Shown here piece after piece: positions 656 through 34,500 of a DNA stretch of 64,000 nucleotides (its first letter is position 1; every line of letters begins with the position of its first letter). The position numbers were made by a program, and so were the translations under genes. Below the pieces are notes generated by a model. That model ran no database searches and had not been told where the DNA came from. It saw only the letters and a program-made list of their open reading frames with translations. Origin of the DNA: an uncultured Ruminococcus sp. (GTDB lineage Bacteria > Bacillota > Clostridia > Oscillospirales > Ruminococcaceae); contig NZ_CAMYUE010000002.1 in assembly GCF_947301925.1 (NCBI RefSeq), forward strand, positions 468,104 to 532,103, given 5' to 3'.

Positions 656-1582
656 TTGTCTGTACTAGAATCAGCAAAGAAGATAGCAACTGCATTTGAT
701 AGGCAGGTTGAAAAGCTCTTTGAGATTCACTCAGAGACCACAGGCCTGTCATCAAAAACTATTCTTCATTATCACAGGCTCATAAGTTCAATACTTGCAC
801 AAGCTACACGCGACAGGCTCGTTCCTTTCAATATAGCAGATCACAACTACATGAAAGCTCCGAAACTTGAGCATTCAGAAGCTGCGTTCCTTGATGAAGA
901 ACAGGCAAGACATGTTTTAGAACTGCTCAATGACGAACCGCTCAAATGGAAAGTAGCTATGTACCTGCTTATATTCAGCGGTATGCGTCGTGATGAGCTT
1001 CTTGGTCTTGAATGGAAAGATATCGACTTCGAGAAACGAATCATACATATCAAGAGAACCAGTCAATACGTTCAGCACATGGGCATTATTACCAAATCAC
1101 CTAAGAACGCCACTTCATACCGTACCGTTAAGCTTCCGGAGTTTGTATTTGATCTTCTTCGTGAGTATCAGGCTTACTGGAACAAGCTCCGTAATGATAT
1201 GCTTGATCGCTGGGAACACTTCATCACAATTACGCTTGCAGACGAAAGTACACAGACCATCAGGAATGACAGACTATTCATAAAGGATGATACTACACCT
1301 ATGAACCCCGACAGTCTGACTGACTGGACAAGTAATTTTGTAAAACGTAATAAGCTGCCCCATTTTACTCCTCATTCGCTCAGACACACACACGCTACTC
1401 TTCTCATTGCTGAAGGAGTATCTATACCCACTGTTTCAAAACGTCTTGGACATTCTTCTATAACTACAACGAGCAAGATATATGTCCATGCAATACAGTC
1501 AGCTGATGAAGTAGCCTCAGATGTGATAGACGGGAAGCTTAATCCCATTCATCACGGCGATGATAAGGAAGAGGCAAAGTAA
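656..1582 (+). pseudogene. tyrosine recombinase/phage integrase, 5'-truncated
   Basis: Catalytic-domain motifs SGMRRDELLGLEW, HSLRHTHATLL, LGHSSITTTSKIYVH; ORF opens right after an in-frame TGA and lacks the N-terminal arm and part of the core-binding domain. Confidence 0.8.
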
Positions 1583-2677: not shown

Positions 2678-2710
2678 AGCTCCATGTGTATGGCACATGG
2701 AGCTTTTTTT
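2678..2710 (+). terminator. intrinsic terminator (plus-strand polarity)
   Basis: agctccatgtg-tatgg-cacatggagct followed by tttttt. Confidence 0.7.
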
Positions 2711-5700
2711 ATTTTTCCAATGACGTATTCTCTATTTGATCATCTATAGTAATATCACCATCACCAATCTGCTTGGATACAAAATCTCGGAATGTTGTAA
2801 TATTTGGATCAAGGATTATTGTCCTTTTAGAAATAGTAAAATTGCCAGCTGCAGAAATGATTGAATAATGCATTCTGCAAAGATCAGAATATATTAATTC
2901 AATTTTGCTTGGATTGAATTGATAATTGTAATATAGAGATATATATTCCAAATCATCATATATACTGTAAAAATTATCAATATCCCAAATATCAGCGGAA
3001 AATCTATTAGAAACATCCATAAAAATAGAAAACCAGTCATCTAAAGTTAAATCTGGATACAGGGCACTAATAATGGCTGTGTTGCCATTAAATCTAAAAC
3101 CATACTTATTTCGACTATGAAGATAAGGAAGCACAATATTATCTTTAAATATGATTTTTTCTTTATCACAAAGAATGTCGATAATATTAAGAATAAGCCT
3201 ACACGAGCTCGAACCTAAATCATTTAAAATTGAATTGATCTCCATTTCGATTTCATGATTATAACCAGATTGCTTTATTCTCTCTAGTAGATCACCATAG
3301 TTCTCATCATTATTAGTAGTTATTGTATATTCCGAAGATGTAGTATCATTTGGCGAACAGTTTCCATATGATATAAGTGTTTCCTTGAGGGAAGGATTTT
3401 TTATCATAGATATTATTGTATTATTATAGCTATATAAAGCCTCGGCATCACTTCTGTATCGAATGCTGCTACTTTCTATCATGTAGTTTATCCAAGCATT
3501 TACTAATCTATATAATTGTATCAATTCTTCATCTGTGTGGAACAATGATTCTGCATGGCGAAACAAAGCTGAAATGAGTGTTTTACGCCAGAATAAAAAT
3601 TCTTCAGGATAGTTTTTAATTTCGAATAAAGCGTCTACGTACTTATATCCAAGTTTTATTGCAACATCAAATAATTCATCTTCTATATGAATACGGTTGT
3701 CACCCATTTTATTTGCATAATCTGAAATTGTAAGTAGTTCCATTCCATGTAAACTTAGTTTTGAATCGTTTAATGGCAAGAACTGATAGCAATCTAGTAG
3801 ACCATGAAGTGAATAATCCTTATGACCAACATACCCTAATATCCTAGACTGTATTCTTGTAGATATTACTTGAGAAAGCGTTAATTCGCCGAACTGATTT
3901 AGTATGTTAATAATATTGTTTCCTACACTTTCTATGACGTCGTATTCCATTTTCCAAAGAATACCATTGATACCACACCAATGTTCTTCAATTTGAAGAA
4001 ATAAATCTTTTCTTTTAGAAATGTAATACAAATATGCTAATTCTTTATAATAGTGCGGTTTTGATCCTATAAAAATCTCTATAACGTCTTCACATAGTCT
4101 AGAAGTTAAAGAAAACTCAGTATTATCAATGAAAAATTGTAAAAACACTTTTTTGATATAAGGAAGAACTTCAAACGCACCAAAATCATTGCATGAGCCG
4201 GTACCATGATGGCTTAAAAATCCAAACAGATTATATGTCATCGCAACCATTTCGTCATAAGAAAGTTTTTTGCCATAAAACATAGAGAAAATCTTCATAG
4301 TCAGATCTTTAAAAATATGTGCAGGTTCAAATCCACGCTTCCCTTTTGAAACATGTTTATCATTTAAAGTCGCATCATATAATGCATCCCAGTCTATGTC
4401 ATTCTCAATATTAAATAGGCAGAACATAGCTTCAAAATAAAAGATTACACCGTGTGCTTTATAATCTAATGAAGGAATAGAAGGTAAGCTGAGTATTAAT
4501 TCGCTAATCTTATTTTGTAATCGTTTATCTATGATTCCTTGTAAAATCATATGAAAGCACAATTCAGTCAATAATTGAACTGATATTTCCGATGAATCGC
4601 ACAGTTTTTCTGAGAGCAATTCTATCGAATCTTTATTTATATCTCTTTCAACTATTGTTTTAGAAATATAATTATACAGATCCAAATCATAGTAAGTTTT
4701 GAAAGATAGTGTAACTGTTATATCTTCTTTTTTAGTAAAACCAACGCTTGCTTCTAACCAGCCTGTAATAAATGAAGCGTAGAATTTATAATCCGAAATT
4801 TTATCCACAAGATTAGGTGCATAACATCTGATGATATATCCCATTTTCTGGCTATTGCTTTCATCTAATTCATTGATTAAGGCGATTAAATCTTGCTCAT
4901 CATAATCTCCAAAATACTCCTTATATAACCTTGAACTACGTACTGATTCCTTTGCCAACAATAGTAAGTATACATCATTGATTATTAATTCCACATGATT
5001 TTTAAAGTCAAGTGTATATTTCTCAGACTGAGTTAAATGGCAAGGCATTTTATTCTCAATAAATTGTTCTTCTTTTTCATAGTATTGAACACACGAAATT
5101 AGCTGTGAAATTGAAGTTGCTACCATGTTGAGAGGATGTATATAATCTAGTTTATGTGGAGAATTTATTAAATCCGTAACAGAGCTAAACTGTTCTAATA
5201 ATTTATCTATTGAAATACTGTAATAGACAGATTTAATGATATAATCCGGATTGAAAAACTCAAAAAGTTTGTCAATCGATTGTGTATCAATCATCAGATT
5301 AAAAACCAAGTCGTATTTATACTCATCTAACGAGCTGTTTTTTAAAACTGCATTGACGATTGAATCGACGATTATTGAATAATTACGGTTTTCTCGTATT
5401 TTGTCTCTTAAATACAGCCTAAAGTCATTGTGTAATGGCGCATATCCGTAATTATCTTTATTAATTAGTGGATATAACTCGTTCAAAATAAATTCGACAT
5501 TAAGTTTAGGAATTTCCAAAATGGTGGCAAGACAATCTGCTTGATGTTTAATTGATGAAAATGCGAATATTGTTTCGATGCGCAATAAATTTAGTTCATC
5601 TATCGATTTGATTGAGCTGATAATCCATTCATAGTACTTCGTAATATATTCATTTAAGCCGCAGAGTGTTAATCTTGAAATAATACTATCGAAGTCAATA

Positions 5701-7181
5701 GGGGGAGTCATTTTTTTAATTTCATATATAGCAAAAATTACATTTAATGCATTATTTCCTACAACTGAGATTATTGATGATGATAATGTGTCCAGATCAA
5801 CATTTTCAATTTCTATATTCTCATATTCTATCAATTGACGAATATCTTGTTCTTTAAGTCCGGGTAGACTTTTACAAACTGCATTCTCGTCACTGACAAG
5901 TCGATTGATATCTTCATTATCTATAGATTGGCCGACTAGTACAAACTTAACATCACCATGAATAGTATCAGGCTGTGGAATTTGTGATAGGAATGTTTCT
6001 TTTTTATCAGATGCCCTTGCAGCATGATCAATTCCATCGATAAAAATATAACACGTCCTTCCAAGTTTTTCCGAATAGATTGGTAAATAATCCAGAACAA
6101 TTGAACGAAGATCTTTAACCTGTAGATGATCATATATTAACGGGAATTTTAATTCAGAAAGGATATTTAGCTCTTCAAATTTCTTTTTAATTTGACTGAG
6201 TATACTAATCCACAAAACTCTACCACTATAATACCCATCATCATCAGTAAAGCATGGAGAGTCTTTGTCCACTGGTAAATAGGTGTAATACCTAAAATCA
6301 ACAATTGAATCTTGCTCTTGAGCAAGGTAACTAACAAAATTCGTCTTTCCAGTTCCTGGATCACCTTTAAGATATATTATTTTTTTATCAGTATTCTGCA
6401 AATACGCTCTAAAGCTATTAGCAAAATCTATTCTCGATGAAAATATAGGCTTCTCTGGACATAGCTCGTGTTTAGGAATCGTACAACTTGGATTACCTAA
6501 CAAACTATATATATCTTCTCTATATATTTCTTCTTTTTCTCTTCGAGAGGTTGCCCATGTTTCTAATCTAGAAAACAGTCTTTCTCTTCCAACCCGAATA
6601 ATATCCTCTCTATCAGTTCCTAAAATAGTCATCAGAATATCATTAATAATAATATCCAATCCAGCTAAATCACTTTCATTTTTAAATTCAAGTATTTTTA
6701 TAAACTCTTGTGTGTCTTTTTCAGATAATGCAATAGTATCCTTGAACCATTTTATGGTGGTCGCTTCTTTTTTGTTTCCTTTGTATAAATGATCCTTTTT
6801 TAGAGCAGGAAGAGTTGTTGTTATAAATGTTAATATCGAACATTTTCCACCTTTTTCCATTGTTCCTAATTCTTTGTTAGTCATGACACATATTTCATCT
6901 ATTCTGTACTTAGTCTTCGTGTCATGCCATTCCTTTGCCCATTTCTTAATTTCAGGCTCTAAAAATGAAAATGTCAGGTTATTATCCTTATCAGTGTGCT
7001 TTACTTGAATGTTTTTCATTCGACCATCAGTATATTTGACAACAACATCATCAAGCGATTGAAATGCAGATGACTGAAGTGTTACGCTTTCAACTGAATA
7101 ATCGCTCATCATTTTCAGGCATTCTATTAATCCAATTTTCCATTCATACCAATATGGGGTTCCTATTCCATAATCTGGCAT
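2709..7181 (-). CDS. STAND/AVAST-like P-loop NTPase with N-terminal Cap4/DUF4297-like PD-(D/E)xK nuclease domain
   Basis: N-terminal SLDDVVVKYTDGRMKNIQVKH (D...QxK nuclease motif), Walker A GDPGTGKT (6342-6365), Walker B CYIFIDGIDHAAR, long helical C-terminus; 1490 aa. Confidence 0.7.
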   Translation of the reverse strand: MPDYGIGTPYWYEWKIGLIECLKMMSDYSVESVTLQSSAFQSLDDVVVKYTDGRMKNIQVKHTDKDNNLTFSFLEPEIKKWAKEWHDTKTKYRIDEICVMTNKELGTMEKGGKCSILTFITTTLPALKKDHLYKGNKKEATTIKWFKDTIALSEKDTQEFIKILEFKNESDLAGLDIIINDILMTILGTDREDIIRVGRERLFSRLETWATSRREKEEIYREDIYSLLGNPSCTIPKHELCPEKPIFSSRIDFANSFRAYLQNTDKKIIYLKGDPGTGKTNFVSYLAQEQDSIVDFRYYTYLPVDKDSPCFTDDDGYYSGRVLWISILSQIKKKFEELNILSELKFPLIYDHLQVKDLRSIVLDYLPIYSEKLGRTCYIFIDGIDHAARASDKKETFLSQIPQPDTIHGDVKFVLVGQSIDNEDINRLVSDENAVCKSLPGLKEQDIRQLIEYENIEIENVDLDTLSSSIISVVGNNALNVIFAIYEIKKMTPPIDFDSIISRLTLCGLNEYITKYYEWIISSIKSIDELNLLRIETIFAFSSIKHQADCLATILEIPKLNVEFILNELYPLINKDNYGYAPLHNDFRLYLRDKIRENRNYSIIVDSIVNAVLKNSSLDEYKYDLVFNLMIDTQSIDKLFEFFNPDYIIKSVYYSISIDKLLEQFSSVTDLINSPHKLDYIHPLNMVATSISQLISCVQYYEKEEQFIENKMPCHLTQSEKYTLDFKNHVELIINDVYLLLLAKESVRSSRLYKEYFGDYDEQDLIALINELDESNSQKMGYIIRCYAPNLVDKISDYKFYASFITGWLEASVGFTKKEDITVTLSFKTYYDLDLYNYISKTIVERDINKDSIELLSEKLCDSSEISVQLLTELCFHMILQGIIDKRLQNKISELILSLPSIPSLDYKAHGVIFYFEAMFCLFNIENDIDWDALYDATLNDKHVSKGKRGFEPAHIFKDLTMKIFSMFYGKKLSYDEMVAMTYNLFGFLSHHGTGSCNDFGAFEVLPYIKKVFLQFFIDNTEFSLTSRLCEDVIEIFIGSKPHYYKELAYLYYISKRKDLFLQIEEHWCGINGILWKMEYDVIESVGNNIINILNQFGELTLSQVISTRIQSRILGYVGHKDYSLHGLLDCYQFLPLNDSKLSLHGMELLTISDYANKMGDNRIHIEDELFDVAIKLGYKYVDALFEIKNYPEEFLFWRKTLISALFRHAESLFHTDEELIQLYRLVNAWINYMIESSSIRYRSDAEALYSYNNTIISMIKNPSLKETLISYGNCSPNDTTSSEYTITTNNDENYGDLLERIKQSGYNHEIEMEINSILNDLGSSSCRLILNIIDILCDKEKIIFKDNIVLPYLHSRNKYGFRFNGNTAIISALYPDLTLDDWFSIFMDVSNRFSADIWDIDNFYSIYDDLEYISLYYNYQFNPSKIELIYSDLCRMHYSIISAAGNFTISKRTIILDPNITTFRDFVSKQIGDGDITIDDQIENTSLEK

Positions 7182-7822
7182 ACTACTTCCTCCATCTTTT
7201 CATATGTTAGTTGGCTGATGTTAAATGCATACTTTCTAATATCAAATTCATTAAAATTAAGATGATATCCCTTTATTAATGCATTGATAACATATTTGAA
7301 TTCAATCACATAGTCTTTAGAGATATAATCATACGGAAATAATCCATTTAGTCTTTGGGCGAAGATATAGAGCTCGGGAACGGTGATAGGATAATATATA
7401 CTCTTTCTATTTATTATAAATCTGTTCAGCAGTACTGTATTAGATATAATTTGTTTGCATACAAGAGCAAATGGCTCTACCTCATCTATTGTTTTATTTT
7501 CATCATTAAACCACAGATAGATAAAGGAATAGGATAGAGTAACTTTTGGTAAATCGGTAATATTGTATTCTTCCATCTCCTGTATGAAAGTTGGCAATAA
7601 TCCTAATAATACAATTTCTGGAATGATGACTATATCGAATTGAATATCAATTTGAAGAATCCGAAAGCGGTGTGTGTCTATACAATAGTAACCACATATT
7701 AAATAGTATTTCTCGATTATAGGTATTGAATCGCGCGAAAAGCATACTAATCCATTACATTCTTCTTGATTATCTAGTATATCTCTATACGTTTTGGTTT
7801 GGGTATCGAATACTTTTATCAT
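7163..7822 (-). CDS. hypothetical protein, putative partner of the STAND NTPase
   Basis: 219-aa ORF overlapping the NTPase start by 19 nt (translational coupling). Confidence 0.6.
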   Translation of the reverse strand: MIKVFDTQTKTYRDILDNQEECNGLVCFSRDSIPIIEKYYLICGYYCIDTHRFRILQIDIQFDIVIIPEIVLLGLLPTFIQEMEEYNITDLPKVTLSYSFIYLWFNDENKTIDEVEPFALVCKQIISNTVLLNRFIINRKSIYYPITVPELYIFAQRLNGLFPYDYISKDYVIEFKYVINALIKGYHLNFNEFDIRKYAFNISQLTYEKMEEVVCQIME

Positions 7823-7969
7823 AAACTGACTCCATATTTATAGCAAATACTCTATTTATTTATCAAGCATCTCATTCACACAGGTTTCGGGTGCACATTG
7901 AGACGGTGCAGAACCATCAGGATAGTTCTGAAGCAATCTCTTCGCATTCTGATACTATAATCATCTTAT

Positions 7970-8907: not shown

Positions 8908-9447
8908 TTACAGTATAGATTTGCGTTTTATGTCGATTACGTCAACTTCTTTTCCCTCTAATAAATCCTCAAATTGCTCGCTTCCATACTTCTTTATGTA
9001 TTCTGATTCTTCTTTAGAAACGAAGAATCCCATATAGATATGACATTTATTATCAACGAATGCAAATTCTTCAGGCAAAACATAAACGTCCGTGAAATAC
9101 AAAGCTGTTTTACCACATTTCTCAGAAAATCCTTCAATAATGCTATCAGCTCCTTCTATAAGAAGCCCTCTGCCAATACTCATATTATTTGATAAAGCAT
9201 AGAATAAGGAATTTGCAAATATTTCTGCACATTCATCGTAGAGATCATCTACGGGAAGTATCACTTCACAACAGTTTCCTTGACCATATTTTGATAATCC
9301 AAAAGATGCAAAAACCAAACTGTCTTTAATCGCATTTGGAAAGCCAAGAATCTGGATTTCATAATCGTTATCGGTATAAACGTCAGCTCCTATGTAATCG
9401 CCTAAAAATTGATTGTAATGATCAAGAATGTTTTCTCCTAAGCTCAT
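8908..9447 (-). CDS. suppressor-of-fused (SUFU) domain-like protein
   Basis: Overall sequence pattern (NILDHYNQFLG...EIQILGFPNAI...VFASFGLSKYGQGNCCEVILPVDD); 179 aa. Confidence 0.5.
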   Translation of the reverse strand: MSLGENILDHYNQFLGDYIGADVYTDNDYEIQILGFPNAIKDSLVFASFGLSKYGQGNCCEVILPVDDLYDECAEIFANSLFYALSNNMSIGRGLLIEGADSIIEGFSEKCGKTALYFTDVYVLPEEFAFVDNKCHIYMGFFVSKEESEYIKKYGSEQFEDLLEGKEVDVIDIKRKSIL

Positions 9448-9506: not shown

Positions 9507-12083
9507 TCACATATCATTTATGTCAAATTCAAGCATTGTACCATCTAAGAAGTGTTCACATTCCTCATAATTAGGATATTCATGCTCCAGTCTTCTGAAA
9601 TCAGCATTATGAAAAGGATTGTCACGATGCAGCATTTCATGGTATATCACGAATTTTACTACTTCTCTTGGAACATCCTTGCTGTTCAGTATAGAATTGA
9701 TCATAATGGAATGATCTTTCCTGTAGTGAACACCGTAATAAGTTTTATATGGCTTGTCTGTCCAGCTTATCGATGAAATACCATTAAACTCCCCTTGAAA
9801 ACGTTCATTTTTAACCTCATTAAACAACTCATTTATATCATAAAACCGAGTCATATCGAAAGGAATCAATTCAAGAGGCATTTCTTCAACTCTAGTTCGA
9901 AGCACACTGCTGTTGCCGTATTTTTGAAAATTGCATACTTCTTGAAGAAAACCAACACATCCTTCATAGATATCACGAATTATCTCATGCTCATAATACA
10001 TGTCAATTGCCGTTGCATATACATCCCTGTTTTCTTTTCTTGCACGCTCAATCACATAACGTGGATCAGCGAACGCTCTATTCTTCAAAGGATGAAATTT
10101 TGGAGTTTCTTCAAGTGTCCTTAGATTATCTATAAGTAATTCAAGTTCATGAATATCTGGTTTATAACAGAAGCCTGAAAAATAGCTGTCAATAGCGTTT
10201 TGAGCATTGAAGTCTGGATTATTGAGCCATTGCTTTTTATCCTTCATCATTCTGTTCAGACCGACTAATTGATCTTCAAAAATAAGCATTCTTGTTGATT
10301 CGCCATACTCGTCCATTAGTGTATACCATCCCGAAGGAACAGCAACAGTACAGTTAGATTCAGCTGCATTGATTCTTAAAGCGCGATATAAAGCTTTGCA
10401 TGCTTTCCATTCATAAGAAACCATTTCACGTTTTTTCTTCTCATAGACCTTCTCGTCAGGTTCTTCGAGTTCTTCTTCTATAAGCCACTGTGGATCCAAC
10501 CATTTATTAAATACATCCCATTGGTCATGGAAATCAACTATATTGACAGTTTTGGTTCCTTTAGCCTCGGGACCTCGCATTCCTCGTCCTATCATTTGCA
10601 TTAGAAAGCCTTCGCTTGTAGTCGGACGAGTAAGGAATACAGTCTGAATATTAGGAACGTCGGTTCCTTCTGTAAGAATATTAACATTAACAAGTACATC
10701 AAGCTTGTTATCTTTGAAATCATTGATAACTTTAGAATTATCTTCCTTTCCAGAATATACAAGCCCGCATCGAACTTTCTTCTTGGAGAGTTCCTCATAC
10801 AAGAAACGACAATGAACCACATTTAATGCAAAAATCAAAGTTTTTCCATATTTCTCAGTGTTATCAAGGTATTGTTTCAGTATAATAGCATTTCTTTCTT
10901 TAGATACTGCAATTTTATGAATGAGAGTATCTGGTAATTCACCATATTTGTTTATAAACTTTGCTTCATCATAAGAAATGTCAGGCTCAAAGTTTTCGGA
11001 AGTTTCTACACGTTCATACTGTGGATCAGCAAGTATCTTCTTAGCTATTAGGTCTGACATTGCTACCTCAAATATTCTTTTGTTATCAAATATTTTTAGC
11101 AGATGAGCAGTTTCCTTATCATTGGAGCGAATTGGTGTTGCAGTTAATCCTAGCAATTTAACTTTGCTTCTGCATTCTCTTATGAATTTTAGTGTATTAC
11201 GATATGATTTTGCTTCGGTGTGATGGCATTCATCGATAACCACCATTACTTTGCCACGCTTAAGGATTCTGCGAAGATGGTCAAGGCTACGACAGATAGA
11301 TTGTATACTTGCTACAATTACTTCAACCTTATCTACTTGTCTGATACTCAAATGCTCACCGGAAATACAGCTTATCCGATAATCTTTGATATCGGGCTTA
11401 TTGATTTTACAAAGACCTGCAAACTGATAAAAGCAATCGGCTGCCTGATCAATAAGCATATGGCGATGAGCTATCCAAAGTATCTGGTAGCCTCTGGATA
11501 TCATCTCTTTTATGAGAAAATATGTAGCAGTACGACTTTTTCCGCTACCTGTTGGCATAACAAGTATACCTGAATCCATATCATCCGTGATATAGTGCTT
11601 AGTAAGCTCTTTAACAGCTTCTTTCTGAAAATCATATAGCGGTACTTCTTCTGCATATGTTTCAGACATTCGGAGAGACACTGTTGTTTTGAATTTACTG
11701 TATTCATTGAGCTGTACTTCGATATCGCTGATGTTATACATTGCTCGTATATATGCATCTATAAGACTCGATGAAGTAGCCTTTTTCATAAGAGCAAGCC
11801 ATCTATCATTATATGAATGACCTGTTATGTATAATGCTTTGAAGATTTTTTCAACTTCATCTTTGAAATTCTTAAGAAGTGAGTTTTCGACTATTTTTCT
11901 ATGTTTACGAATAAGTGAAGTATTTGGTTCAGCATACACTGAACACATTACACTTATTAGACTATCGATATCATCGTATTTTATTGCATAATCCATCTGC
12001 TCTATCTGACCTTTGTCAAGATCAGATGCCTCAAGGATCTCTTTTATAAAAGATGGATAAAAGTTTACCCATGTAAAGCCCAT
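9507..12083 (-). CDS. SF2 DEAD/DEAH helicase with C-terminal SprT/M78-like metalloprotease domain
   Basis: MPTGSGKSRT Walker A, VVIDECHH, GLTATPIR, QMIGRGMRGPEAKGT; C-terminal YHEMLHRDNPFH (HExxH codons 9627-9641). Confidence 0.85.
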   Translation of the reverse strand: MGFTWVNFYPSFIKEILEASDLDKGQIEQMDYAIKYDDIDSLISVMCSVYAEPNTSLIRKHRKIVENSLLKNFKDEVEKIFKALYITGHSYNDRWLALMKKATSSSLIDAYIRAMYNISDIEVQLNEYSKFKTTVSLRMSETYAEEVPLYDFQKEAVKELTKHYITDDMDSGILVMPTGSGKSRTATYFLIKEMISRGYQILWIAHRHMLIDQAADCFYQFAGLCKINKPDIKDYRISCISGEHLSIRQVDKVEVIVASIQSICRSLDHLRRILKRGKVMVVIDECHHTEAKSYRNTLKFIRECRSKVKLLGLTATPIRSNDKETAHLLKIFDNKRIFEVAMSDLIAKKILADPQYERVETSENFEPDISYDEAKFINKYGELPDTLIHKIAVSKERNAIILKQYLDNTEKYGKTLIFALNVVHCRFLYEELSKKKVRCGLVYSGKEDNSKVINDFKDNKLDVLVNVNILTEGTDVPNIQTVFLTRPTTSEGFLMQMIGRGMRGPEAKGTKTVNIVDFHDQWDVFNKWLDPQWLIEEELEEPDEKVYEKKKREMVSYEWKACKALYRALRINAAESNCTVAVPSGWYTLMDEYGESTRMLIFEDQLVGLNRMMKDKKQWLNNPDFNAQNAIDSYFSGFCYKPDIHELELLIDNLRTLEETPKFHPLKNRAFADPRYVIERARKENRDVYATAIDMYYEHEIIRDIYEGCVGFLQEVCNFQKYGNSSVLRTRVEEMPLELIPFDMTRFYDINELFNEVKNERFQGEFNGISSISWTDKPYKTYYGVHYRKDHSIMINSILNSKDVPREVVKFVIYHEMLHRDNPFHNADFRRLEHEYPNYEECEHFLDGTMLEFDINDM

Positions 12084-14975: not shown

Positions 14976-15530
14976 TCATTTTCTGTATATCCTGTCACAG
15001 ATATACTTCACAGGCACTTCCTCGGTACACCAGACCTCATTCTCGGTTACTCCAAATCTGTATCCGTCCTTATTCATCTCTGATGTTGCTATTTTCAGCA
15101 CTACCGGAGTCTTGTGCCAACGCTCGGCTGACTGCCATGCTTTGCTTATATCGGCTTGCATATGTACAGCGTGTCGCTTCATCTTCTTTATAACTCCGCT
15201 CTCCTCAATGGCTTCAAGAGCCTTTGTAGTGGTTCCGTGGTACAGGAACTCAGGCGGTTCACAATACTTCAACTCAGGTTCAACCCACGGAACCGAGTGT
15301 CCCTGACAGCACTTGATCTTTTCATGTTTATCATCAAATCTGTAACGTCCCTTGTTGTCTTCGGCTACTATCTGTTCCAGTAGTTCACGGTCCAGCTTAT
15401 AGCTGCTGTGGCGATTAACGCCCTCAATAAGCTGTTCTACTGATACCCAGCCATGCTTGTCCATGTCAAGCTCTGCTTTCTCAGGCTGATGTCGAAGGAG
15501 CAAACACAGATATTTCGATAATTCGTTCAT
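14976..15530 (-). CDS. kptA: RNA 2'-phosphotransferase (Tpt1/KptA family)
   Basis: MNELSKYLCLLLRHQPEKAELDMDKHGWVSVEQLI, LYHGTTTKALEAI, HAVHMQADI. Confidence 0.9.
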   Translation of the reverse strand: MNELSKYLCLLLRHQPEKAELDMDKHGWVSVEQLIEGVNRHSSYKLDRELLEQIVAEDNKGRYRFDDKHEKIKCCQGHSVPWVEPELKYCEPPEFLYHGTTTKALEAIEESGVIKKMKRHAVHMQADISKAWQSAERWHKTPVVLKIATSEMNKDGYRFGVTENEVWCTEEVPVKYICDRIYRK

Positions 15531-15675: not shown

Positions 15676-16965
15676 TTAGCAATTATTATGCATCTCCAGT
15701 AAAGACTCGAACAGATCAGGCTCAGGAAGAGCACCAAATACTCCTCGCTTGTATTTTTCTACAAGATTGCTCGTATCTCTTACTCCGTTCTTTTCAGCTG
15801 TGAACTCAGATAATGAATACAAATACGCATCATCCAAGTTTCTATGAGCAAACCATATCTGTTCTTTTCTGAACAGCTTCTGGCAATCAAGCAGATTAGT
15901 ATCGTGAACAGTGCAGATAAGCTGTGCCTTTGTGTTGAGTTCGTTATTAAACATAGCTATTATTGCTCTAACAAGCTTGAAATGCAGGCTATTGTCAAGT
16001 TCATCCACCACAAGTATACGCCCGTTTTCAAGAGCATCTATCACATAACTTGCAAGACAGACCATCTTCTTTGTACCGGTAGAGTCAAAAGCCATGCTTG
16101 GAACCGTCACTCCCTTGTAAGTCGAGAACAAGCGAAGCTGCTCAATAAATGTCTCTGATCCTTCTATAGCCTTTTCCTGTATATGAATTTCATCATCGCA
16201 ATTCAATACCTTGCCAATATCGTTATTGGAGTTAGCTTCTTTATGATATTGATAGTTTTCAAGGTATAGTCCTGCGTTAAGGATGAAGTTTACTATCTTT
16301 TGCTTCTTCTCATCGGACTGCTTTAGCATTTCGATAGTCTTTTTCATCGGGATATTATTCATATCCACGATATCTATCTTCCTGGCAAATGAAGTGATGA
16401 TATTCTTTATATCAAACATAACAGAGAACTGCGATGTATCAAGGAGGTAGATCAACAGATTATTCTTTGCAATTACTTTCATTGCCGAAATTACAGCGCT
16501 CTTTTCATCTTCGTCCGCTGTATTGCAGACGTAATCCTTGTTTTTTATATCTCTGAGAAGAATTATTGTTTCCTTCTTGTTCTTATGTATATCATAGGTA
16601 ATTTTTGAGAACTTCTCAAAAAAGTATTCATTTTTAGAATAATCATATTTCAGCTCAAAGCAATACTCAAAGCTGTTATCACAAAAAGATATTACGAATT
16701 CGCACTTCTTATCATCATTGAATATATTTGGGACCATCCGCTTGCCTTCATTGAGCATGATACTCCTTACAGTATCAAGACATCTGACAAAAAGGGTTTT
16801 TCCTACGTTATTAGGTCCCACAATTATTGCAGACTTCAATACATTTGTAGAGTTTACTGATATTACATTGCACGGAAAATGCTTGTTTCTCATATCAGAG
16901 CGCATAGTAAACTCTGTTTCCGCATTATAAATAAAGCAGTTATTTACCTTTAACGAAATTAGCAT
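15676..16965 (-). CDS. AAA family ATPase (AAA_15/AAA_21, abortive-infection type)
   Basis: IIVGPNNVGKTLFVRCL Walker A; ILVVDELDNSLHFKLVRAII Walker B; LICTVHDTNLLD. Confidence 0.8.
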   Translation of the reverse strand: MLISLKVNNCFIYNAETEFTMRSDMRNKHFPCNVISVNSTNVLKSAIIVGPNNVGKTLFVRCLDTVRSIMLNEGKRMVPNIFNDDKKCEFVISFCDNSFEYCFELKYDYSKNEYFFEKFSKITYDIHKNKKETIILLRDIKNKDYVCNTADEDEKSAVISAMKVIAKNNLLIYLLDTSQFSVMFDIKNIITSFARKIDIVDMNNIPMKKTIEMLKQSDEKKQKIVNFILNAGLYLENYQYHKEANSNNDIGKVLNCDDEIHIQEKAIEGSETFIEQLRLFSTYKGVTVPSMAFDSTGTKKMVCLASYVIDALENGRILVVDELDNSLHFKLVRAIIAMFNNELNTKAQLICTVHDTNLLDCQKLFRKEQIWFAHRNLDDAYLYSLSEFTAEKNGVRDTSNLVEKYKRGVFGALPEPDLFESLLEMHNNC

Positions 16966-31547: not shown

Positions 31548-34500
31548 TTAGCCCTTAAAATTATTTAATCGACGTAAACATTCTGTTTTCTCTTCAGCTG
31601 TAAGAGCTACAAACATTTCTATAATACCGTTGATTTTTTGAGTCTTAATCTTTTCTGTGATTGCAGAAGAAAGCAGTGTTATAACTTCTAAGTCATTTTC
31701 TGTTAAGAACTCTGGAAGTTCGGTCATTGTTCCTTGCCACTGGACACACTGTGATACCGTCATTGTTTCAATCGAATCACGTATATTCTGAATATTCTTT
31801 CTAAGCCATTCATTTCGTTTTTGAGCCTGAATATCTTTTAGCGAAAGGATATATTCCGTCATGTACCGATCACATACAGTACCTTTCCATTTGTTGTTGT
31901 ATTCTTCTTCAAGACTTTCAATTATTGAATTATCAGCTTGAATTATGCTTTTTTTGACTTTTATGAACTCTTCAATAAGATTCAGCGTACTTGTGAGAGC
32001 AATCACTGTCTTTTCATCAGGGTTAAGACGAATAGCTTTAGAAATATGCTCGGACAGAAGTGCATAACTCTCAGTTGGCTCTTCAATTTCTTTTAGAATC
32101 TGCTGTATCTGTTTGTCAAGCTGAGATTTCTGATTCTTAACCTTCTCCTGAGCTTCGTGGAGGTTGCGAACGAATTCGTCCCTTACTGAACTTACCATAT
32201 CATTTGCAGCATTGAATGTGTCAAGCCAGCCAGAAAGCTGTGCTGATGTTTCCTCACACTTTGGAAAATCGAATGTATGAACGGAATTATCAATAGCAGA
32301 TATGAAACGACGAGCATCTGCTATGGTAGAAGCGTATTTCTGTTCAAGCTCTGCTTCTTGTAAAACCACATCAATACGTGCTTTCAGTATGCTTGCATAC
32401 TCCTTCTTGCCGAGTTCCTGAAGCTTTTTGGCGGTCTGCTGATATTTCTTCTTAAACTCACTTGACTGCGAATAAGAACATTTCAGCTTTGAAACAAACG
32501 GAGAGAAGTTCTCATCAAGCGTCTTTGATGCCTCAGACAGTAATTTTTCTACACGGGCAACATAAGTTGGACTGTACAGGAATTCTGAGTATTCTTCTAT
32601 CTTGCTGTCAACCTCTGGTTTTTCTACATTTGACAGCACAGAAACGATTTGTATCAGACTGAATGTGTTTTTGCACGTCTCAATAGCATTTTCTGCTTTG
32701 GTTAATAATCCATATTTTGTAGTATTGTAATTAACACCTTGCTGTAACTTCATCTCACAGGCGGCAATTTCGCCCTTGATAGAGTCGATGTTCTCTGAAG
32801 CTTCAACAAGTGCCTTTAGCTGTTTTGAGTACTCTGAGCATCTTTCGGTATATACAAGTTGTTGTATGTCTTTTATTAGATCGGTTAGTGCTTCATCGTC
32901 TGTTTGTGTTTTGAGTACAACACGGAGCTTCATCAGATTTTCAAGCATCTTTCTGTCGCTTTGTAGAAAGGTGTCAATGAACTGTTGCTTAGTCATCAGG
33001 ACTGTTCCATCAAATATGCTTATTTTCTTGCTGTTCAGCGAAAGGACATAAATGATAAATAAGAAGAGCGAATAATAGTTCAGACCGTATGGTGCAGAAC
33101 GGTAGTATCCAAACAACTGACCTATGGTATGTTGACTATCAGCGGAGAATTTTTCCATTACTTCCTGATAGATTTTCTTTACTTTGGCGTTTCTCGGTTC
33201 GCAAAGATTATAATTAGCATCAAAAACCTGCCATGAAGTGGATGGTGTCTGAGTATGCAATGCGGTAACAATACGCCGTTTCTCTGTTGGATCAAGCCCC
33301 TGATAAGATTGTTTGTTGCACATCGTACCTGTGAACATACTACGGCACATGGAAAGAAGCGTCTTTTTAGCTGTAGGGGTAGCTTTCTTTTCAAACTCCG
33401 TGAAAGAGAATGGTATTGTATTAGGATAGCATTTTTTGAACTTATCATAGCAATGCTGGTTGATTCTGCCGGTCAGCGTTTCAATGCCATTTTCAGTAAG
33501 TATCTTCTTTTCGCCGGTCATACGAGTAAACTCTGATGAAATCGCTCGTATTATCGCACGACTCTCTTTTCCAAGAAATCGAGCATACATTTCTTTTTCG
33601 GATTCTGTGAATTTGCGATATACCGCACGGCGTTTCAGATGCCCAAACCACTTTTCATCATCATCAAACAGTAGACAGAAAACAATCGGTAACTTATGTA
33701 GCTCCAAAGTCTTGATTAGCTTCGTGACAATAGGAATATCTCTTTCCGATGTTTTGCCGCAGTACAGGTATACAAGAATGCCACGATACATCTCACCGTC
33801 AGTCGCATCCTTAACTTTTGCCATAAGAGAACGGCAGTACATTTCATTTATCTTAGAAATATTGATAAGTATCTGGTTATATTGCCACTCCAGTGAGGAT
33901 ATACTATTTTCTTGACTGAAAGCAGTTGATACAGGAACATTCAGCCTCAATTCGTTTGAGAGTTCCTCGTCCATCTCATCTATCGGATCATAGCCACGGA
34001 GCATAGTCATCTTCTTCATTATGCAAATGGTGTACTCCTGTTTGCCATGAGCTTCTGCGTTAAGGTCAAAACGATTGGCTTCTGTATCATATGTGATAAC
34101 ACAGTATTCATTTTCAAGTCCAGCAACAGCAGTATTTGTATCTTCTTCGTTTAGTCCGGAGCATAGTTTCAAACAGCTGAGAGCGCTGTTACGATCGTAG
34201 AATTTAAACTTCAGGATACTGCATATCAGTATAGCACGAAGCACTTTAACAGCATTTTCTGTTATCTTGCCATCGAGTTTTGTAATAATAGTCTGATATG
34301 TAAGACAATTCTGACTTGCCACGAAGCCTTTTTCCTCAGAACTGAGCATTTCATCAAACAGACTTGTACCGATAATATCTACTGGATAAATATAAGGAAG
34401 CCATCTTCCACTTACTTCATTATTCTGGATAGCCTCAAACATTTCGGCAGTATAGGCAATAGTAGAACGTTGCTGCATCCATGACGAAGTATTTGCCAGA

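Follow-up and report, generated by a model that had tools for sequence, protein, structure and literature searches.

In a 64,000-nucleotide stretch of DNA from an uncultured gut Ruminococcus sp. (referred to as the window, always at its full length), two overlapping genes encode a 1490-aa protein, in which a Cap4-type nuclease appears to be joined to a STAND NTPase and a long C-terminal region, and a 219-aa protein of no known family. Judging from sequence comparisons, the pair is in our reading a new form of Cap4-STAND immunity that takes two genes. For the small protein, the likeliest role is that of a co-sensor or adaptor of the large one, or else of its restraint. Tentatively, we favor a mobile two-gene module against phages, similar to bacterial NLRs (Avs-like), with the small protein as co-sensor or adaptor. 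The positions of the two genes and their parts are collected in the table.

Features of the two-gene module and of the adjoining recombinase (positions are those of the window)
Feature	Position	Strand	Basis or remark
Tyrosine recombinase (phage-type integrase), adjoins module	656..1582	+	Pfam Phage_integrase 99.5 bits; PHROG 1
12-pair inverted repeat directly past the stop of the large gene; possible transcript end	2678..2704	.	weak
Large gene, 1490 aa, ATG start	2709..7181	-	ORF; Cap4 nuclease, STAND NTPase, long C-terminal region
C-terminal region, residues 560-1490, presumed sensor	2712..5504	-	sensor role inferred from architecture
Invariant H584-N585-D586 (YAPLHNDFRLYL)	5424..5432	-	six-homolog comparison
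STAND-type NTPase, residues ~250-500	5682..6434	-	NPHP3_N, AAA_22, Avs1b NTPase segment, Foldseek
Walker B-like YIFIDGIDHAAR, residues 378-389	6015-6050	-	
Walker A GDPGTGKT, residues 273-280	6342-6365	-	
Cap4/DUF4297-type PD-(D/E)XK nuclease domain, residues 10-150; E13, D44-D45, Q59-x-K61	6732..7154	-	Pfam PF14130, LmuA, SAVED_PDDEXK matches; invariant residues
Small partner gene, 219 aa, ATG start, no known family	7163..7822	-	ORF; orthologs in L003, L038
19-nt overlap of small and large gene	7163..7181	-	8 nt at both orthologous loci
GGAGG ribosome-binding site of the large gene, within the small gene, 7 nt before ATG	7189..7193	-	
GGAG ribosome-binding site of the small gene, 7 nt before ATG	7830..7833	-	

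The two reading frames and their 19-nt overlap, as given in the earlier note, are confirmed, and its description of the large protein as a Cap4-type nuclease with a P-loop NTPase and a long C-terminus is supported by Pfam, PADLOC, Foldseek and an ortholog of 59% identity (L003). The Cap4_nuclease profile (PF14130) scores 25.9 bits on residues 10–150 of the window protein, just below the cutoff of 26.2, and 31.1 bits on L003, above that curated cutoff; the N-terminus thus matches Cap4/DUF4297 as had been supposed. The D...QVK nuclease signature noticed at codons 6999–7052 is present in the sequence SLDDVVVKYTDGRMKNIQVKHT (D44 codon at 7052–7050, K61 codon at 7001–6999). E13, D44, D45, Q59, K61 and an H-T are invariant across six homologs, down to 23% identity, and so are the Walker A motif, the Walker B-like DGIDHAAR and the HND at 584–586, which we take to lie where STAND proteins have their winged-helix H motif. 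The NPHP3_N P-loop is matched at 28.6 bits (Pfam cutoff 24.8), AAA_22 is matched as well, and PADLOC returns LmuA, the Lamassu Cap4, together with the NTPase part of Avs1b over residues 235–467. Relatives of the large protein add matches to the CBASS SAVED_PDDEXK effector.

Structure prediction gave a model of low confidence for residues 1–560 (AlphaFold, pLDDT 50; NTPase part mostly 60–89), with a helix and then three strands bearing D44 and Q59-K61 in a PD-(D/E)XK-like arrangement. The top Foldseek matches of this model in the PDB, all with low TM-scores, were the plant NLR NRC3, followed by AAA/ORC proteins and CED-4, and a sequence search of the PDB returned mS29/DAP3 and other P-loops only. 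The C-terminal region is most variable at 700–900 (46% identity) and 1250–1490 (49%), and no repeat was found in it by Pfam. With an effector (10–150), an NTPase (250–500) and a C-terminal region (560–1490) in this order, the reading of the protein as a Cap4-type nuclease, a STAND NTPase and a long sensor-like C-terminus, the plan of Avs proteins and bacterial NLRs, is supported.

By analogy, the large protein probably works like an Avs protein or bacterial NLR; membership in any named type is unsupported. We place it in no named type because no model of Avs types 1–5 in PADLOC or NCBIfam matches over the full length, and the NCBIfam Avs1b match is 25.1 bits against a cutoff of 1500 and is confined to the NTPase. 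From the label "Avs/STAND-like" used in the earlier note, the Avs/NLR plan is retained, whereas no modelled Avs type applies and only the NTPase part of Avs1b is matched.

The small gene had been described as belonging to no recognisable family, and the profile libraries indeed match nothing. Searches of Pfam, PADLOC, NCBIfam, PHROGs, the PDB, plasmids, phages and IMG/VR yielded no match, phage and plasmid copies of the gene included, and known small partner families such as the ABC-3C middle component gave no Pfam match to E = 1. AlphaFold, run with two sequences, produced no usable model of the small protein (pLDDT 38). By hydropathy no membrane helix is common to all three orthologs, and no catalytic or binding motif was seen. 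The three orthologs align from end to end, and conservation is better at the ends than in the variable middle: 3 of 35 residues are invariant at 106–140 and 25 of 50 at 161–210. Among the invariant polar residues are D14, R30, D59 and H187. In a permutation test the variable stretch reaches p 0.015; the conserved stretch alone, at p 0.11, is not significant.

The survey of gene neighbourhoods that the earlier note had proposed was run on 125 genomes of the genus, with further samples drawn from the order (295 genomes), the class (391) and the family (359). The large gene is present in three of the 125 same-genus genomes (the window's own, G1420, which holds L003, and G1431), and the small gene is present in exactly those three. 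The two are adjacent at each and overlap by 19, 8 and 8 nt, so the proposed coupling of the upstream gene to the large one holds at 3/3 same-genus loci. In G1431, where the overlap is 8 nt, the large gene is cut by the end of the contig (11,696 bases, frame to 11,683). Identities among the three loci are 50–59% for the large gene and 42–52% for the small gene, whose orthologs directly upstream of the large gene are 52% (L003) and 43% (L038) identical to that of the window. A scan of the genome collection found one relative of the large gene, L003, in a Ruminococcus MAG, with the small ortholog immediately upstream and the 8-nt overlap. The DNA alignment between the window and L003 runs from 7822, at the ATG of the small gene, to 2779, within the large gene, and no further. 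This confinement of homology to the module implies that the pair travels together, as a single unit, into unrelated settings; the flanking genes differ among the three loci.

Both genes are under purifying selection, with dN/dS well below 1 (window against L003: dN about 0.36 for the small gene and about 0.32 for the large; dS saturated, >2.5). No credible orphan small gene was found in the order, class and family samples. The weak matches to the small gene in the class and family samples are judged to be chance since they are short and often interrupted by stops, and the best family match lies antisense to gyrase/topoisomerase-like genes (L045). Genes upstream of the pair (a 303-aa ORF, SUFU and helicase) were considered as further members and rejected, since L003 and L041 do not share them. 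In Ruminococcus, on the strength of three loci all in one genus, the small gene looks like a required partner and not a bystander.

Relatives without the small gene occur at 25–29% identity in three Bacillota genomes (G1059, G1270 and G966) and on Leptospira and Klebsiella plasmids, sharing the nuclease-NTPase part with the large protein. The G1059 relative (L031) is about 1565 aa long and collinear throughout at 25% identity; those of G1270 and G966 have 1984–1989 aa, and the Leptospira protein (L006) has 1963 aa in one plasmid and is shortened or split in others. Like the window protein, these single-gene Cap4-STAND relatives (L031, L035, L036 and L006) are collinear over at least 700 N-terminal residues and keep the same invariant residues; unlike it, they stand without the small gene, and three have about 400 extra C-terminal residues. 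The small protein is no detached piece of that extension as far as profile-profile comparison can tell, since the comparison found nothing. Because the distant relatives lack it, the small gene is not needed by the architecture in general, and the partner is an acquisition by, or a retention in, one clade. At L031 (5417–6004) the partner slot has a different occupant, an HhH-GPD glycosylase-like gene that lies some 44 nt ahead of the likely start. On an IMG/VR prophage contig (IMGVR_UViG_2654587701_000005; L048/L049), a relative of L031 (63%) directly follows two large serine recombinases.

A recombinase lies near all three loci, a tyrosine integrase in the window and in G1431 and an integrase-like recombinase tail in L003, and this was counted in favor of a mobile module. 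The G+C content of the module is 30.7%, compared with 38.9% for the window and 43–47% at its far end. The surroundings include an AbiLi/AriA-like ATPase at 15676–16965 (AbiLi 211 bits, AriA 83 bits), a possible PARIS-type or Abi defence gene, and a cluster at 31548–52579 with SspA/DndA, SspF, two SspC/BrxC-like proteins, DndH/SspH and a BrxP-like protein, apparently a phosphorothioation/BREX-like hybrid. This defence-island setting (15.7–17 kb and 31.5–52.6 kb) was counted in favor of an anti-phage module. The same island holds a RadD/PbeA-like helicase with a C-terminal YgjP/SprT-like metallopeptidase domain (9507–12083), an unusual fusion, and a Tpt1/KptA RNA 2'-phosphotransferase (14976–15530; 141.6 bits). 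A SUFU-domain protein is encoded upstream of the module in the same orientation (8908–9447). On the integrase side, in the chromosome just outside the window, three repeats of about 270–370 bp are 88–93% alike (L043: 116–487, 6454–6823 and 11428–11699). The inverted repeat behind the large gene is weak evidence for a transcript end, because such sites in the region number no more than the shuffle mean.

Avs proteins have a tripartite STAND order, and their nuclease effectors cut phage and host DNA upon recognition of phage proteins (PMC12931631). The large protein has in common with Avs (AVAST) types 1–4 an N-terminal effector nuclease, a central STAND NTPase and a long C-terminal sensor-like region; the window differs by the extra small gene of no known family. 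The earlier note's statement that Avs proteins usually act alone is too strong, because in AVAST type 1 an upstream gene takes part, whose product Avs1a is a pro-nuclease activated by a STAND-borne protease (PMC12799240). That system (Avs1a nuclease and protease-STAND Avs1b) resembles ours in having an upstream partner gene followed by a large STAND gene. In the window, by contrast, nuclease and STAND NTPase sit on one protein, on which no protease is detected, and no profile of Pfam, PADLOC or NCBIfam identifies the partner as an MBL nuclease. CBASS Cap4, Lamassu LmuA and DUF4297-HerA share the N-terminal Cap4/DUF4297-type PD-(D/E)XK domain; the window has no SAVED domain, SMC partner or HerA helicase, and its nuclease is joined to a STAND NTPase. 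Upstream partners of STAND proteins as such are known; what sets the window apart is a partner of no known family on a STAND protein that is itself equipped with a nuclease. No account of such a pair was found by a literature search, the two primary Avs papers being outside the reach of that search.

From these relatives we infer triggering, oligomerisation, DNA cutting and defence by the large protein. It would rest as an inactive ATPase until its C-terminal region and the small protein meet a phage product, whereupon the STAND domain would change state and oligomerise. The N-terminal Cap4-type domains would thereby be gathered to cut double-stranded DNA, stopping both phage and cell. Analogy with Avs (PMC12931631) and with Cap4/DUF4297 domains, which multimerise as the DUF4297 dimer and the Avs3 Cap4 tetramer, leads us to expect that the large protein is a DNase which acts when triggered; DUF4297-HerA cuts dsDNA (PMC11291478). 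The small protein would be made first and in step with the large one via translational coupling. It would belong permanently to the resting complex and take part in recognition, with its conserved N- and C-terminal segments docked onto the large protein and its variable middle exposed. A stoichiometric subunit fits the position of the gene, the tight coupling and the uneven conservation. The co-sensor role itself is a guess, and we put it before restraint by judgement and only tentatively.

A somewhat doubtful role for the small protein is that of a restraint, an antitoxin-like inhibitor or threshold setter which, by binding the large protein, would hold the nuclease inactive until phage interference with the small protein, or its loss, sets the nuclease free. 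The arrangement, with the small gene upstream, overlapping and coupled in translation, is the usual one for an antitoxin that precedes its toxin, and among the 125 Ruminococcus genomes the large gene is never without the small one. Nevertheless, STAND proteins restrain themselves, the distant relatives manage without such a partner, and no antitoxin-like or DNA-binding family of Pfam or NCBIfam is matched. It is improbable that the large protein activates the small one as a second effector or pro-effector, a counterpart of Avs1a: AVAST type 1 does share the gene order, with the effector upstream of the STAND gene (PMC12799240), but the large protein already has a nuclease of its own and no protease was found on it by Pfam, PADLOC or NCBIfam, and the small protein matches no enzyme family and is not recognisable as a metallo-beta-lactamase.

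We give still less credence to a pair that acts mainly on non-phage targets, such as plasmids or competing mobile elements, in defence of its recombinase-bearing carrier element; a recombinase does adjoin all three loci, yet it is for their part in anti-phage systems that Cap4 and STAND domains are best known. Strongly disfavoured, and very unlikely, is an ordinary single-protein Avs-like system with the small gene as a carried-along neighbour, since, even if the relatives elsewhere are single genes, the pair and its overlap are kept under purifying selection at 42–52% identity in three contexts with different flanks.

Most descriptions of bacterial NLR-like proteins present them as one-protein sensors. 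It is possible, at rather less than even confidence, that the small protein is the first member of a new family dedicated to partnering NLR-like nucleases, in which recognition is split in trans, as in a helper/sensor pair, and not lodged in one C-terminal domain. Defence annotation gains a nameless partner family at a locus where the libraries match the large gene only weakly, to Lamassu and Avs1, and leave the small one without a match. Were an extra protein always linked to a Cap4-STAND nuclease throughout a clade, this would point to split recognition or to a dedicated off-switch.
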